DNA from: a virus
Length of the DNA: 35,329 nucleotides
IMG/VR virus record: IMGVR_UViG_3300005613_000216
Location: 1 to 35,329 of that record
Reading direction: 5' to 3' (one strand)
How positions within the stretch are numbered: the stretch's first letter is position 1; each line of letters begins with the position of its first letter. A program made the translations under genes and the position numbers. Below the pieces are notes generated by a model. It made no database searches. It was given only the letters and a program-made list of their open reading frames with translations, and was not told the DNA's origin. Of this stretch, positions 29,031 through 35,329 are shown in pieces.

Positions 29031-29435
29031 ATGGATCATTACAGATTAAGTGACGAACTTCGTCAACAACTACTAGAGAACGCTGCCTGGGGTAAGGCTG
29101 GTGTTACTCCTCGCCTAGACGAGAAGAAATCAAGCCGCGCTGATGACAGTGAAATGCCCGCCAAGAAGAAGGCAAAGAAGAAGGAAATGGAAATGGAAAT
29201 GGAAGAGTCCGAAGAGGTCGAAGGTGAAGGTCTTGAAGAAGCCGTTCATGTTTGCCCCCTTTGCGTTTCTCAGCTTGACCAGCCTCTTGATGAGGAGAGC
29301 ATTCTTGAGCACCTTAACGTAGTTATGGGCCTCGTTGATCGTCTTACCCAACTTCAAGAGGGTGAAGAGGATATCGAGTCAGTAATTGACGAGACTCTTG
29401 CCGAGCTTCTGTTCCAAGACCTGGAAGAAGAGTGA
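29031..29435 (+). CDS. Acidic prohead-core-type protein with a Cys/His motif
   Basis: 134 residues. The N-terminal 35 residues are mixed. A charged low-complexity segment follows (K-K-K-A-K-K-K-E-M-E-M-E-M, then Glu-rich to residue 70). It then has H73-V-C75-P-L-C78 and a second His at 94, a possible metal site, and an acidic helical C-terminus (ETLAELLFQDLEEE). It is the first gene of the head operon, in the place where T4 has the small acidic core protein gp67, and acidity and size agree with a prohead-core role. The Cys/His site is not part of T4 gp67, so the identity is uncertain. A zinc-dependent assembly factor is an alternative. Only a weak GAG lies 8 bases before the start. Confidence 0.5.
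   Translation: MDHYRLSDELRQQLLENAAWGKAGVTPRLDEKKSSRADDSEMPAKKKAKKKEMEMEMEESEEVEGEGLEEAVHVCPLCVSQLDQPLDEESILEHLNVVMGLVDRLTQLQEGEEDIESVIDETLAELLFQDLEEE
29183..29200 (+). repeat. GGAAAT triplicate microsatellite
   Basis: Three perfect copies of GGAAAT, followed by a degenerate fourth, encode the alternating Met-Glu run of the first head-operon protein. Changes in copy number would keep the reading frame and alter the length of the charged linker by two residues per unit. Confidence 0.85.
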
Positions 29436-29454: not shown

Positions 29455-29955
29455 ATGAAAAGTATCGGAGACTTCGCAGAAAAGCTAATCCTAAACCAAA
29501 CTCAAAGCATTAAAGAGGGGAAAGAACTTCCTCCCCAAGCTAAGAGCAGTGGTTTAGCACCTGCTGGTAGGGACATCTCAAATGTTGAGGTTGATGATAC
29601 TTTCATGCGTCAGGTCCTGGGCGAAAGTTTTCACCCACAGGATACTCCACCCACAGACTCTATTCCTGAGCTAGTTTGGTCAGAAGCAGAATCAGAGAAG
29701 CCTGCTCAATCTTTAACTGAGGAAACTGCACAGCAACTTGTTCCTCTTCTAGAAGAGGTCAGAGATCTCTTAAAGGAAATGAGTGCTGCTGCCACAACCA
29801 CGGGTCAGATTGGTGCTAATATGACTGGTTCCCAAAGTAGTGATAGCTGCATTGGTAAAGAAGAAAAGAAGTATGGTTATATTTCTGCTCGCCCTGCTAC
29901 ATCAAAGAAAGAAATTCTTAAACAATCAATTAGAAACAAAGCCAGAAGACGATGA
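29455..29955 (+). CDS. Probable prohead-core or internal protein sharing a capsid-protein maturation site
   Basis: 166 residues from the ATG at 29455, which has AGGGGA 7 bases upstream. The open frame extends to an ATG at 29386 inside the previous gene, which is less likely. Residues 1-105 are acidic to neutral and partly helical. At 106-118 comes LKE-MS-AAATTTGQ, and the rest (119-166) becomes strongly basic, ending KARRR. The L-x-E plus AAATTTGQ sequence also occurs at the proposed maturation site of the major capsid protein. I infer that the prohead protease cuts here and releases a basic C-terminal peptide into the head. In T4 the genes at this position encode prohead-core proteins. No other domain is recognised. 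Confidence 0.5.
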   Translation: MKSIGDFAEKLILNQTQSIKEGKELPPQAKSSGLAPAGRDISNVEVDDTFMRQVLGESFHPQDTPPTDSIPELVWSEAESEKPAQSLTEETAQQLVPLLEEVRDLLKEMSAAATTTGQIGANMTGSQSSDSCIGKEEKKYGYISARPATSKKEILKQSIRNKARRR

Positions 29956-30371
29956 AACTGACGGAGGCCATTGATAGCATTACGGAAGCGCGAGGCTCTA
30001 AAGAGGGTAGAAAAGTCTACACCTCTAGAGAAGGAGCCAAGCGTGACGTAAAGAAGTCTTTCAAAGGCCGAGTTAGAACTTACGATAGTATCAAGAGTGC
30101 TTTATCAGATGGTAAGTTTGGAGACATATTTACTACCAAAGCTGCTGGTCGTTTGTATGTTATTTCTAAGGGTAAGTGGGGAAGCAAGAGCGGTAGAGGC
30201 AAGATTGCGAAAGGCTTCACAAAAGGTAGCGCAACTCCATCAGCAGATTGGGGTAGTGTCAAGAAACACGCTGCTAGAACCATGCTTAGGTATGGTAAAG
30301 CTTCCAACAAGTTAGCTCAAAAATACGGTAGTAGATCTATCAAAAAAGAACGAGGATTAAAGTACAAATGA
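29952..30371 (+). CDS. Small basic core or internal head protein with N-terminal targeting-like peptide
   Basis: 139 residues, very basic, dominated by Lys, Arg, Gly and Ser (for example KGKWGSKSGRGKIAKGFTKG). It starts MKLTEAIDSITEARGSK. This resembles the capsid-targeting peptides of T4 internal proteins, short N-terminal peptides that end at an L/I-x-E site for gp21 and are removed on maturation. Here I11-T-E13 followed by Ala would be the cut. T4 gp68, a basic prohead-core protein of about 141 residues, has the same size and place directly before gp21. I expect a DNA-binding or scaffold-core role inside the capsid. It overlaps both neighbours by ATGA. Composition and order support the class; the cleavage is inferred. 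Confidence 0.55.
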   Translation: MKLTEAIDSITEARGSKEGRKVYTSREGAKRDVKKSFKGRVRTYDSIKSALSDGKFGDIFTTKAAGRLYVISKGKWGSKSGRGKIAKGFTKGSATPSADWGSVKKHAARTMLRYGKASNKLAQKYGSRSIKKERGLKYK

Positions 30372-31801
30372 CACAGTTGCTCCAAGATGTATTTATTGTA
30401 GAGAACCTTCAAGTTCTTACCGAGGGTAAGAATAGTGACACCATGAGAATTAAGGGTGTCTTCGGTCGGTGTAATGAAAAGAATAACAATGGTAGAATCT
30501 ATCCTACCACTGTTTTTGAAGGTCAACTTAAAAAGGTTCAACCTCTTATCTCAGAGCGGCGTTTGTGCGGTGAGCTTGATCACCCACAAAACGATACCGT
30601 CAAGCTTTCAAATGCATCTCACTTAATTACTAAGCTTGAGATGAAGGGTAACGAACTTATTGGAGAGGCTGAAATCCTCAAAACTCCTGCTGGTCTTACT
30701 GCCAAAGCTCTCGTAGAGGGTGGTGTGAAGATCGGTATTTCTTCCCGTGGAATGGGCACTCTATCTGAGGACGCCCAAGGTAACAAGATCGTCAACGAAG
30801 ATTTCCGCCTAGTCACCTTCGATCTTGTTGCCGATCCATCCACCCGTGGAGCTTTCCCTGGCCTTTCCGAGTCTACTCAATCCCAGTTCGCAAGAGAAAG
30901 CCAAAGCAAGCTTGAGAAAGAGTCCAACTTTGTAACCATGCTTCAGTCCAAGCTGCGCGAAGCGTATGATCCTTGGATCGAAGAAGCTAAGAAAAAGAAG
31001 AAAGGTAGTTTCCCAGATCTTAATAAAGATGGAGAAATTACCAAAGCTGATGTGCTTGTTGGTCGAGGTGTTATTTCTGGTCCAAAAAAGAATAAGATGA
31101 TGGAAGCAGTTAAGGCTGAGGGTAGCTGGCACCAGATCGCTTATGCTCTTGCTGAAGCCTTTGATGATGAACTTGAAAAATCAGGAGAAGATGACCCAGA
31201 AAAAAGAATGAAAGCGGCTGATTCGGAAACCAGGGCTGCCAAGGCGCAAGTAAAAGCTGCTAGAGAAAGAAGAAAAGCCACTCAAGCAGAAAGAGAAGCG
31301 AAGGGTCAAGGCGTTCGAGGAGCCATCAAACAAAGAGTTGGCAAAAGAATTTCTCAGGGCGGTGAAGTAAAACAAGCCCAGAGACAAGGCGATATTGATG
31401 TTGCTAAAGCTCGCTTTGCTGGTCGTGCTGGTGCTGAACACGCAAAAGCTCAAGGCGCTGTTGAAAGAGAAAAGGCCCGCCAAGCGGCCAAAACCAAACT
31501 CGCAAAAGCGCGAGGTAAAAGGTATGGAGCTACTACCTTAGCAGGAGTGGCAGGCCAGAAAGTAATAGGAACTGCTAAAAGGCTTGGTACAAAAATGGGC
31601 CTAACGGCACATACTGAATACAAGCAAATTGGTCTTCACCTTGCCGAAGCTTTTGGTCTCATTGAAGGTGCAGATGCTCCCATGAAGGGTAGCCGCCAAG
31701 AGGGCCAAACTGAGGTTCGCAAGGCAAGCTATAATGTTCGGGCACACCGCAAGAAGAACCAAGCTGCCAAAAAACGCGAGAAGGCAAAACAACATCGTTG
31801 A
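30368..31801 (+). CDS. gp21: Prohead maturation protease (gp21-like) with EF-hand-like loop and long basic extension
   Basis: 477 residues; T4 gp21 is about 212. Residues 1-165 are the protease: CGELDHP with catalytic His72, GISSRGMGT with Ser125/Ser126, and FDLVADPS with Asp152/156, as in the T4 gp21 (S80) serine proteases. The added 310 residues contain LREAYDPWIEEA (196-207), a perfect EF-hand/dockerin-like loop D-L-N-K-D-G-E-I-T-K-A-D (217-228), LAEAF (261-265), then a helical Ala/Lys/Arg/Gln-rich region to about 410, a second LAEAF (425-429) and a basic tail. L-x-E before Ala is the gp21 cleavage rule. The extension may therefore be cut off by the enzyme itself and stay in the head as a histone-like protein. 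It overlaps the core gene by ATGA. Protease certain, fate of the extension inferred. Confidence 0.85.
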   Translation: MTQLLQDVFIVENLQVLTEGKNSDTMRIKGVFGRCNEKNNNGRIYPTTVFEGQLKKVQPLISERRLCGELDHPQNDTVKLSNASHLITKLEMKGNELIGEAEILKTPAGLTAKALVEGGVKIGISSRGMGTLSEDAQGNKIVNEDFRLVTFDLVADPSTRGAFPGLSESTQSQFARESQSKLEKESNFVTMLQSKLREAYDPWIEEAKKKKKGSFPDLNKDGEITKADVLVGRGVISGPKKNKMMEAVKAEGSWHQIAYALAEAFDDELEKSGEDDPEKRMKAADSETRAAKAQVKAARERRKATQAEREAKGQGVRGAIKQRVGKRISQGGEVKQAQRQGDIDVAKARFAGRAGAEHAKAQGAVEREKARQAAKTKLAKARGKRYGATTLAGVAGQKVIGTAKRLGTKMGLTAHTEYKQIGLHLAEAFGLIEGADAPMKGSRQEGQTEVRKASYNVRAHRKKNQAAKKREKAKQHR

Positions 31802-31880: not shown

Positions 31881-32525
31881 ATGAGTAATTTAAAGAATAT
31901 TGCTGATATTCTTCCTGAAGGACTTGATGAATCCACCGTTCAAGCTGTCTTTGAACTGGTGGATTCCACTATTAATGAGCAAGTCGCTGAGAAAGTTGGT
32001 TTACTTGAGGCCAAAGTAAACGCTTATCTAAGAACAAAGGTTGATCGGCTAAAGGAACAAGCTCTTGCTGAACTTAGTGAAGAGAACGAGGTTTTCCGCA
32101 ACGCTCGTCTGTTTGAATCAGTGAGAACTCTAATGGCCCTAGAAATAAATGGTGCGGACGAAGACAATGCTCTTTCTGAAATGACAAGCCAACACGGCGA
32201 ACTTCAGGAAGAGTTTGACGTTTTAATTGACCAAGTTAATGCTTTGGTAGTTGAAAACGAAAAGCTTCAAGGCACCATCAAAGTTCTTAACGACAAAGTT
32301 TCCATTTCGGAGGGGACAGTCGAACAGCTTGAAGGCCACAAAGCACAGCTTCTTGAAGAAGTTGAGAATTTAGTAGCTGCACGCGACGAGGCATTTGCTT
32401 CCTCTGAGCAAGCAGTAGTTGTATCTCAAGCCGATGTTGAGATCAACGAATCGAAAACTCAAACTGGTAATGAGTTTTTAACTGATGAGGTCATGAAGTT
32501 CATGCCCTTTTCCTCCCAAAAATAA
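31881..32525 (+). CDS. gp22: Prohead scaffold protein, T4 gp22-like
   Basis: 214 residues (T4 gp22 is 269), acidic and almost fully helical. Heptad-like stretches at about 40-70 and 105-170 (ENEKLQGTIKVLNDKVSISE) suggest coiled coil. Several L-x-E sites (LPE at 11-13, LLE at 41-43, LAE at 62-64, LSE at 98-100) fit the known destruction of gp22 by gp21 after head assembly. The C-terminus NEFLTDEVMKFMPF is a short hydrophobic end that probably touches the capsid protein. It lies between protease and major capsid protein, the same order as T4 21-22-23, and has a good AGGAG ribosome site. Composition, position and length agree. Confidence 0.8.
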   Translation: MSNLKNIADILPEGLDESTVQAVFELVDSTINEQVAEKVGLLEAKVNAYLRTKVDRLKEQALAELSEENEVFRNARLFESVRTLMALEINGADEDNALSEMTSQHGELQEEFDVLIDQVNALVVENEKLQGTIKVLNDKVSISEGTVEQLEGHKAQLLEEVENLVAARDEAFASSEQAVVVSQADVEINESKTQTGNEFLTDEVMKFMPFSSQK

Positions 32526-32540
32526 TAGGAATTTATTCAA

Positions 32541-34166
32541 ATGGAAATGATGCATCGCACAGACGATTCGCTTGTCCAGAAGTGGGAGCCTGTCCTTGAG
32601 GGCATCGACAGTGACTATACTCGTCGTATCACAGCTCAACTTCTTGAGAACCAAGCTAAGTCTATTGTCGAGGAAAGACTTTCTGAGGATATTACCGCTG
32701 CTGCTACCACCACTGGTCAGCTTGGTACTTTCCAAAAGTTCGCTTTCCCTCTCGTTCGTCGGGTTTACCCACAACTTCTAGCCAACAGCCTTGTTGGTGT
32801 TCAGCCCATGCAGGGTCCAGTCTCACAGGTTTTCTACCTTGGTAACGACCGTGCCCGTAATGGTGGTGGTGCTGGTAACGTACAAACTATTTACAGCAAG
32901 TACAACCTGACCTACAGAGGTCTGACTGCTTCCGCTATCGGTTCTGATTCTGGTGTTGGCGCTGCTGGCGGTGGTTTCACCCCCGACACTGGTGCTGGTC
33001 TAGATGGTGATGACGCTCAAAGCGGCTTCGACCTTTCTAACGTCCTCAACACCCTCTCTGGTAGCACCGAGATGGTCGGTGCTGGTGCTCCATCAGGCAC
33101 CTTCGGTGGTCAGATCGCTGCTTGGCCTAACGAGAACGCTATTATGGGCTTCAATGTTTCTGCTGGTGAGCGTCTAACTGGAACTGGTATTCCAGAGATG
33201 ACCTTCCACATCGAGCAGGAAGCCGTTGTTGCCAACACTCGTAAGATGCGTGCTCTCTGGACTCTTGAGGCTTCTCAGGACCTTAAGGCTTACCACAACC
33301 TTGACCTTGAGCGCGAGCTTACTGACCTTCTCTCGAAGGAGCTTCAGCTTGAGATCGACCGCGAGCTTATCGAAGATCTCCGCATGATCGCTTACGGTCT
33401 TCGTGATCGTAACCTTGGTGGTGTTGATCAGCGTCTCATGGATTCTGATTATGTTTCTCTAGGCACTGTTGGTGAGAGATTCCCTGGTCTTGGTGGAGCT
33501 ACTAACGCTACTGATGCCACAACTTTCGTTCCTGCTCAGTTCACCTACGACTTTGCGAGCGATGTCCCCACCACAGGCTCTGAAAGCTCTAACATCTTTG
33601 TTATTGATTTCAGTCAGTCAAGCCTAGCCCTCTACCCACGCCACGTTGGTGAGGTCTACGCAAACCTGCTCGCAATCATCAACCTTGCTTCGCAGGATAT
33701 TTACCGCACCACCATGCGTGGTCCTGGTAACTGGCTACTGACTTCACCACTAGTCGCTTCACTCCTTGAGAGTGCTTCCAAGCTTGAGGGCGGTGTTCAG
33801 CCTGCCGATGGTCCCACCAACATCGGTGGAAACTCAATTGAGTACAAGGGCAAGTTTATGGGTCGCTACGATCTATATGTTGACCCAATGTACCCAACTG
33901 ACGAAATTATGGTTGGTTACAAGGGTGCGAACGCTATGGACGCTGGTTACATCTACGCTCCATACATCCCACTCCAGCAGCTTCCAACTATTACGGATCC
34001 TGAGTCCTTCCAGCCCAGGAAGGGTATCCTTACCCGTTACGGTAAGGTCCAGATTGAGCCTTACAACAGGTTCTACCGCATCATCCGTATCATTGGCCCA
34101 ACTGCCAACTACCTGTTCAGCCCCTTCAGTAGAAACACCACCGCCCTGGGTGGTTCAGTGAGCTGA
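32541..34166 (+). CDS. gp23: Major capsid protein, T4 gp23-like
   Basis: 541 residues (T4 gp23 is 521). Signature stretches include FQKFAFPLVRRVYPQLLANS, LVGVQPMQGPVSQVFYLGND, and the C-terminal KGILTRYGKVQIEPYNRFYR with NYLFSPFSRN. The first 49 residues are helical and charged and end RLSE-D; L-x-E fits the gp21 rule, so mature protein probably starts at Asp50, just before ITAAATTTGQ. In T4 a 65-residue propeptide is removed. Codon use is more C-ending and G+C-rich than in neighbouring genes, as expected for the most abundant virion protein. AGGA lies 10 bases before the ATG. A strong terminator follows 23 bases after the stop. The fold is HK97-type, forming the hexamers of the head. Confidence 0.95.
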   Translation: MEMMHRTDDSLVQKWEPVLEGIDSDYTRRITAQLLENQAKSIVEERLSEDITAAATTTGQLGTFQKFAFPLVRRVYPQLLANSLVGVQPMQGPVSQVFYLGNDRARNGGGAGNVQTIYSKYNLTYRGLTASAIGSDSGVGAAGGGFTPDTGAGLDGDDAQSGFDLSNVLNTLSGSTEMVGAGAPSGTFGGQIAAWPNENAIMGFNVSAGERLTGTGIPEMTFHIEQEAVVANTRKMRALWTLEASQDLKAYHNLDLERELTDLLSKELQLEIDRELIEDLRMIAYGLRDRNLGGVDQRLMDSDYVSLGTVGERFPGLGGATNATDATTFVPAQFTYDFASDVPTTGSESSNIFVIDFSQSSLALYPRHVGEVYANLLAIINLASQDIYRTTMRGPGNWLLTSPLVASLLESASKLEGGVQPADGPTNIGGNSIEYKGKFMGRYDLYVDPMYPTDEIMVGYKGANAMDAGYIYAPYIPLQQLPTITDPESFQPRKGILTRYGKVQIEPYNRFYRIIRIIGPTANYLFSPFSRNTTALGGSVS

Positions 34167-35310: not shown

Positions 35311-35329
35311 TGCCACTTACACCAAAAGG
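35310..35329 (+). CDS. Start of a further gene (partial)
   Basis: ATG at 35310 overlaps the preceding stop as TGATG and opens a frame M-P-L-T-P-K that runs off the right edge. Translational coupling is as elsewhere in the window. By analogy with T4 order a second neck protein is possible, but six residues identify nothing. Confidence 0.5.

Follow-up and report, generated by a model that had tools for sequence, protein, structure and literature searches.

Putative targeting-cleavage motifs in the long, mosaic basic C-terminal extension of a T4 gp21-type prohead protease from a clade of uncultivated viruses

The window analyzed here is a virus record of 35,329 bases, and the features with which this analysis is concerned surround a homolog of the T4 prohead protease gp21:

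30368..31801, plus strand: gp21-type prohead protease gene, 477 aa, ATG start, stop included
30368..30862, plus strand: protease domain, residues 1-165, assigned from sequence family, predicted fold, and conserved H72/S125
30875..30964, plus strand: helix, residues 170-199, where the gp21 of short relatives ends (..VFITMLKNKLRKK-stop)
31010..31069, plus strand: EF-hand-like stretch FPDLNKDGEITKADVLVGRG, residues 215-234
31127..31156, plus strand: first targeting-like motif WHQIAYALAE, residues 254-263, predicted cut after E263
31157..31648, plus strand: predicted basic Ala/Lys/Arg-rich cargo fragment, residues 264-427, 164 aa, pI 10.3
31619..31648, plus strand: second targeting-like motif YKQIGLHLAE, residues 418-427, predicted cut after E427
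31649..31798, plus strand: basic C-terminal piece, residues 428-477, 50 aa, pI 10.8
31881..32525, plus strand: separate acidic core/scaffold gene in the gp22 position, 214 aa, pI 4.3
32541..34166, plus strand: major capsid protein gp23, presumed to be what the protease chiefly cleaves
35311..35329, plus strand: opening bases of a following gene (MPLTPKG..), truncated where the window ends; the gene at the same place in relatives carries the targeting-like motif

Ahead of gp21 lie genes for an acidic 134-aa protein, one further protein, and a basic 139-aa protein, and behind it come the gp22-position gene and gp23; this order matches that of T4, where portal-side core genes are followed by 21, 22, and 23. 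Cyanophages provide the best-ranked cultured relatives of the major capsid protein, at just 29% identity. An earlier sequence-only reading of this DNA had placed the start of the feature at 30934; this position is inside the gp21 open reading frame, at residue ~189, but the frame itself begins at 30368.

Residues 10-173 of the protein match Peptidase_S77 (E = 2e-23, 83.1 bits versus a gathering cut-off of 27), and gp21 also matches phrog_207 (E = 3e-51). The sole sequence match in the PDB is T4 gp21 (5JBL), which aligns with residues 26-179, and 5JBL chains are likewise the top Foldseek matches to the predicted structure (E ~1e-13), followed by weak matches to herpesvirus proteases. The catalytic His and Ser are conserved as H72 and S125, which do not vary among 32 relatives and which align with two Ala positions of the 5JBL chain that are His and Ser in wild-type T4 gp21. 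The gp21 fold ends near residue 165, bearing out the original estimate of where the protease domain is complete. Judged from its sequence, the window gene is an intact T4 gp21-type prohead protease with predicted activity after L/I-X-E, the sites discussed below being candidates. It shares with T4 gp21 the sequence family, fold, gene order, and a C-terminal LAE/A site (T4 gp21 ends in ..AYMALAE/AMKKAL, the slash marking the cut), whereas T4 gp21 is 212 aa long with a tail of a few residues and the window protein has 278 further residues containing two motifs.

The length of this add-on is set by comparison with short gp21 forms in and around the window's clade, which are about 200 aa in length and whose last helix corresponds to residues 187-199 of the window protein. 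The long extension reported by the sequence-only reading is real, but by this comparison its 310 residues reduce to a true add-on of ~278. Ala, Lys, Arg, and Gln make up 45% of residues 166-477 and 50% of residues 264-427, so that calling the tail "mostly" these residues was slightly generous; the net charge from residue 166 onward is +28. The basic fragment of about 164 residues proposed to lie between the last two cut sites is present in the sequence as stated (264-427, 164 aa, pI 10.3, net +17). A Pfam search of the extension returned no family at E 0.05, and the term "histone-like", which described composition only, should be dropped as a name because the extension has no Pfam family and is moderately basic. 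Nor is the extension uniform: it contains the EF-hand-like stretch, the two targeting-like motifs, and predicted helices between low-confidence linkers, and a search for tandem repeats within it found none. AlphaFold, structure prediction having been one of the checks suggested earlier, modeled the extension as helical, with low confidence (mean pLDDT 67; pTM 0.36 for the whole protein). Pelagibacter phage HTVC027P has a small protein with a stretch similar to residues 215-234, and this EF-hand-like stretch is the only match to the extension found in cultured phages.

Within one clade of uncultivated T4-like viruses, such an extension on gp21 is widespread, hypervariable, and mosaic. A maximum-likelihood tree built from 94 protease cores placed every one of the 44 proteins extended by at least 60 aa within a single 56-row clade (support 99/97), together with nine short and three intermediate proteins, while a 34-row sister group consisted entirely of short gp21. 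Tails range from 60 to 638 residues within the tight 25-row subclade that holds the window, and across the extended clade the protease cores are nearly identical while tail lengths vary several-fold. All of the extended relatives are metagenomic contigs. An assembly error or lost stop codon was rejected as an explanation, as many contigs carry the open reading frame uninterrupted, L002 among them over its full length. A search of the open-access literature found no prior description of a gp21 of this kind.

A comparison of gp21 lengths, also suggested by the sequence-only reading, showed that the cultured T4-like phages sampled have proteins of about 203-224 aa, with two exceptions, Maribacter phage Molly_4 (436 aa) and Listeria phage LIS04 (559 aa). 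In both, the long gp21 lies directly before the capsid gene, and these proteins look like protease-scaffold fusions, an arrangement also known from P2 gpO and herpesvirus UL26. They resemble the window protein in having a long C-terminal domain on a prohead protease that would be expected to be released by self-cleavage, and they raise the question of whether the window tail could itself be a fused scaffold domain, as in phages that have no gp22 gene. Their tails, however, are acidic (net −20 in Molly_4 and −24 in LIS04), unlike the basic, cassette-like tail of the window, and a separate acidic gene in the gp22 position follows the window gp21. On charge and on the presence of this separate gene a scaffold fusion was rejected as very improbable.

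All three of the candidate gp21 cleavage sites listed by the sequence-only reading are present: L-R-E at 196-198, L-A-E at 261-263, and L-A-E at 425-427. The first is not conserved, 13 relatives having D versus 18 with E. E263 and E427 each terminate a 10-residue motif, [YW]..I[GA]..LAE. Counted with the pattern [YWF]..[IVFLM][GA]..[LIVMF][AML]E, it gave 37 matches among 49 distinct extensions, compared with 0.0 on average and 1 at most after shuffling. Since the pattern was drawn from these same sequences, a strand control is the fairer test, and across 85 loci the pattern had 35 occurrences in gp21 and 15 in other ORFs of the plus strand, with none on the minus strand; one of those 15, in L142, looks like a chance match. 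A profile search of whole contigs with the motif recovered mostly gp21 and a gene ~4 kb downstream, behind a 292-aa gene in the neck position; this downstream gene is the one that starts at 35311 in the window. The W-type motif has lost its final E in several relatives, many of which keep an I-A-E inside the motif.

T4 offers precedents for L/I-X-E cleavage, for a capsid targeting sequence (CTS), and for C-terminal processing of gp21 (PMC9026906). Targeting by the T4 CTS depends mainly on residues 4 and 7 (Tyr, Phe) and processing on residues 8 and 10 (Ile, Glu), according to studies reviewed there (PMC9026906). The T4 internal proteins IPII and IPIII both start MKTYQEFIAE/A, a short signal of Tyr and hydrophobic residues ending in xAE/A before variable, often basic proteins, and the window motifs broadly resemble it. 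The Tyr/Trp with a hydrophobic residue at +3, equivalent to T4 residues 4 and 7, is found as [YW]..I in both window motifs, although its invariance among the aligned motif rows is partly by construction, as the rows were chosen by a pattern that requires [YW]..I. L-A-E is present, but about 3 residues farther from the targeting half than the corresponding site of the T4 CTS. T4 internal proteins are each separately encoded with an N-terminal tag, whereas in the window the units stand in tandem on the protease and the motif is internal; in relatives, stand-alone small genes between gp21 and gp22 do carry it at the N terminus, starting MNNTYKNIGLIIAE/A (L028), MYNTYKHLGFLIAE/A (L016), and MSLFNAYKLIGSLLAE/A (L046). 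The motif resembles the CTS in a by-eye comparison of a short sequence, which is not a homology test, and its role in head targeting is putative. As a separate observation, the first motif of L005 (gp21 residues ~269-278) ends in ..LAD, not ..LAE; in the T4 CTS, Asp at the position of the final Glu permits targeting and blocks processing (PMC9026906).

The extension is not confined to the fused form. Sequence matches give at least four cases in which a piece of the gp21 tail forms a gene of its own elsewhere. In L028 and L016, the C-terminal gp21 unit matches a separate 85-aa gene in L046 (87% identity for L028), and a unit in L023 matches a separate gene behind gp21 in L016. A tail segment of L128 has its counterpart in a separate gene of L087 (E = 3e-17), and one of L036 in a separate ORF of L007 (E = 1e-11). 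In L031, gp21 is just 261 aa and its stop is overlapped by a basic 290-aa gene; the product of this gene aligns with the tail fused to gp21 in L029, a near relative of L031, with a score of 150, whereas shuffling gave a mean of 64 and at most 110. In L043 and L045, too, a short gp21 is followed by a basic gene, but these genes have no significant similarity to the fused tails and so count only as analogues in the same place. The sequence-only reading had foreseen that relatives might encode the extension separately as a sign of assembly error; separate genes do exist in some relatives, but as gene fusion or fission, not as error. The gp21, gp22, and gp23 frames of L046 all appear broken between 4001 and 8595, and since gp22 and gp23 look broken too, its broken gp21 was treated as a sequencing error; the stand-alone cassette gene of the same contig (6935-7192) is intact. 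A small cysteine-containing module, KKGRCWxGYxPxxGxxPYSKGSC, was seen both in the gp21 tail of L133 and in a separate gene, L096:863 (plus strand).

These separate genes bear on a rival reading in which the extension has no cargo role, its helices serving to dock the protease to the scaffold or core before being digested and expelled. Proposals that gp21 propeptides target the enzyme fit such an anchor, as does the freedom with which extension length varies, and the C-terminal tails of T4 gp21, phiKZ gp175, and SPN3US gp245 are thought or have been shown to be auto-removed. Self-processing of the C terminus after glutamate in phiKZ gp175 and SPN3US gp245 parallels what is proposed here, but their propeptides are short, with no cassette structure in the published descriptions examined. 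The anchor would also accommodate the absence of any depletion of cleavage sites: family-wide, cargo regions contain 118 L/I-X-E sites versus 94 expected, so that the cargo could be cut further, and the idea that cargo is protected from cleavage was rejected on this basis. Residues 264-424 of the window do contain zero [LIVMF]xE sites, which runs against digestion, though not significantly (P = 0.13). What weighs against a mere anchor is that tail units also occur as separate genes with their own N-terminal motif, for which an anchor would have no need, and we regard this reading as a real but rather unlikely alternative.

Comparison of the window with L002, its nearest relative, shows how abruptly the extension changes. 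Measured as the fraction of synonymous sites that differ, divergence is 0.14 for residues 1-180, 0.61 for 181-300, 0.02 for 301-427, and 0.79 for 428-477, each step being significant at p < 1e-11, with segment limits chosen by eye from 20-residue blocks. One step falls near the predicted cut at E427, a coincidence not to be pressed as exact because the limits were set by eye, and neither of the first two matches the position of the first motif. Purifying selection is strong on residues 1-180, while the 12 nonsynonymous and 2 synonymous changes in residues 301-427 are indistinguishable from neutrality. An average dN/dS of 0.44 over residues 264-417 was discarded because this segment is mosaic.

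The lack of purifying selection in residues 301-427 would suit a fast-evolving disordered tail under weak constraint and with no dedicated function, as would the low-complexity composition, the missing Pfam match, and the low model confidence. A neutral tail would, however, be expected to gain stops and shrink, and most extended relatives keep theirs long and open; nor would it account for highly non-random recurring motifs, mosaic exchange, and cassettes shared with separate genes. We consider a functionless tail improbable. Still less credence can be given to the basic part being also, or mainly, a separate protein made from an internal start, like the short form of T4 gp21. T4 gp21 and gp17 both have internal starts and the window has ATG-ATG at codons 244-245, but no Shine-Dalgarno-like sequence lies at a suitable distance from these codons, and many relatives have Phe rather than Met there; an internal start was rejected for want of a suitable ribosome-binding site.

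We favor, with a probability of roughly 60%, a gp21 that carries C-terminal, CTS-delimited, exchangeable internal-protein cassettes released by self-cleavage. In this model, the basic extension fused to the gp21 C terminus is made up of one or more cassettes, each behind a targeting- and cleavage-like helix of ~10 residues, [YW]..I[GA]..LAE/, and the motifs would help draw the protease into the prohead core. Upon head closure the enzyme would cut its own tail after E263 and E427, and the basic ~164-aa fragment and basic ~50-aa tail would stay in the head alongside the DNA. The cassettes may be swapped because they do virus- or host-specific jobs, like T4's internal proteins. The hypothesis of a protease carrying releasable basic cargo has substantial comparative support, in a stronger form than the sequence-only reading proposed, with exchangeable cassettes bounded by signals and moving between gp21 and separate genes. 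That reading's further suggestion, that fusion ties the dose of the cargo to that of the enzyme, may apply to the fused forms but is not universal, as some relatives encode the basic protein separately. Copy number counts against a cargo function, since T4 contains 72 gp21 versus ~360 of each IP (PMC9026906), and at T4-like gp21 levels the cargo would be scarce. The longer spacing of the motif compared with the T4 CTS, its internal position, the loss of the final E from the W-type motif in several relatives, the undiminished number of L/I-X-E sites in cargo regions, and the lack of purifying selection in residues 301-427 also weigh against the model. A broader proposal, which we offer tentatively and at less than even odds, is that gp21 in this clade acts as both a polyprotein and a recombination landing site, at which targeting-cleavage and cargo cassettes are swapped with neighboring genes, and that it processes its own cargo in the head. 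The cargo itself could perhaps consist of anti-defence or takeover proteins.

The mechanism and purpose of tail self-cleavage by prohead proteases have been called a major gap in knowledge of the T4 head (PMC9026906). A clade with a long, exchangeable, motif-delimited tail makes the proposal that the gp21 propeptide is a targeting signal directly testable. If the cassette reading is true, injected internal proteins of uncultivated phages could be found by searching for [YW]..I[GA]..LAE behind gp21 or at N termini.

Several neighboring genes have features of their own. The gene starting at 35311 overlaps the stop of the 292-aa gene, and the first ~40 residues of its relative in L010 match small proteins of Puniceispirillum and Pelagibacter phages. 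Immediately upstream of gp21, the basic 139-aa protein (29952-30371, plus strand; net +26, pI 10.6) has the N terminus MKLTEAIDSITE/ARGSKEG, with a hydrophobic-x-E/A site that is kept in relatives, and is possibly a separately encoded internal protein at the place of gp68. The gene before it (~29461-29955, plus strand) has relatives whose protein starts MKSIGDFAEKLIL, so the TTG at 29386 is probably not its start; this N terminus resembles the T4 CTS, and the protein contains LKEMSAAATTTGQIG, which is close to LSEDITAAATTTGQLG near the N terminus of gp23.
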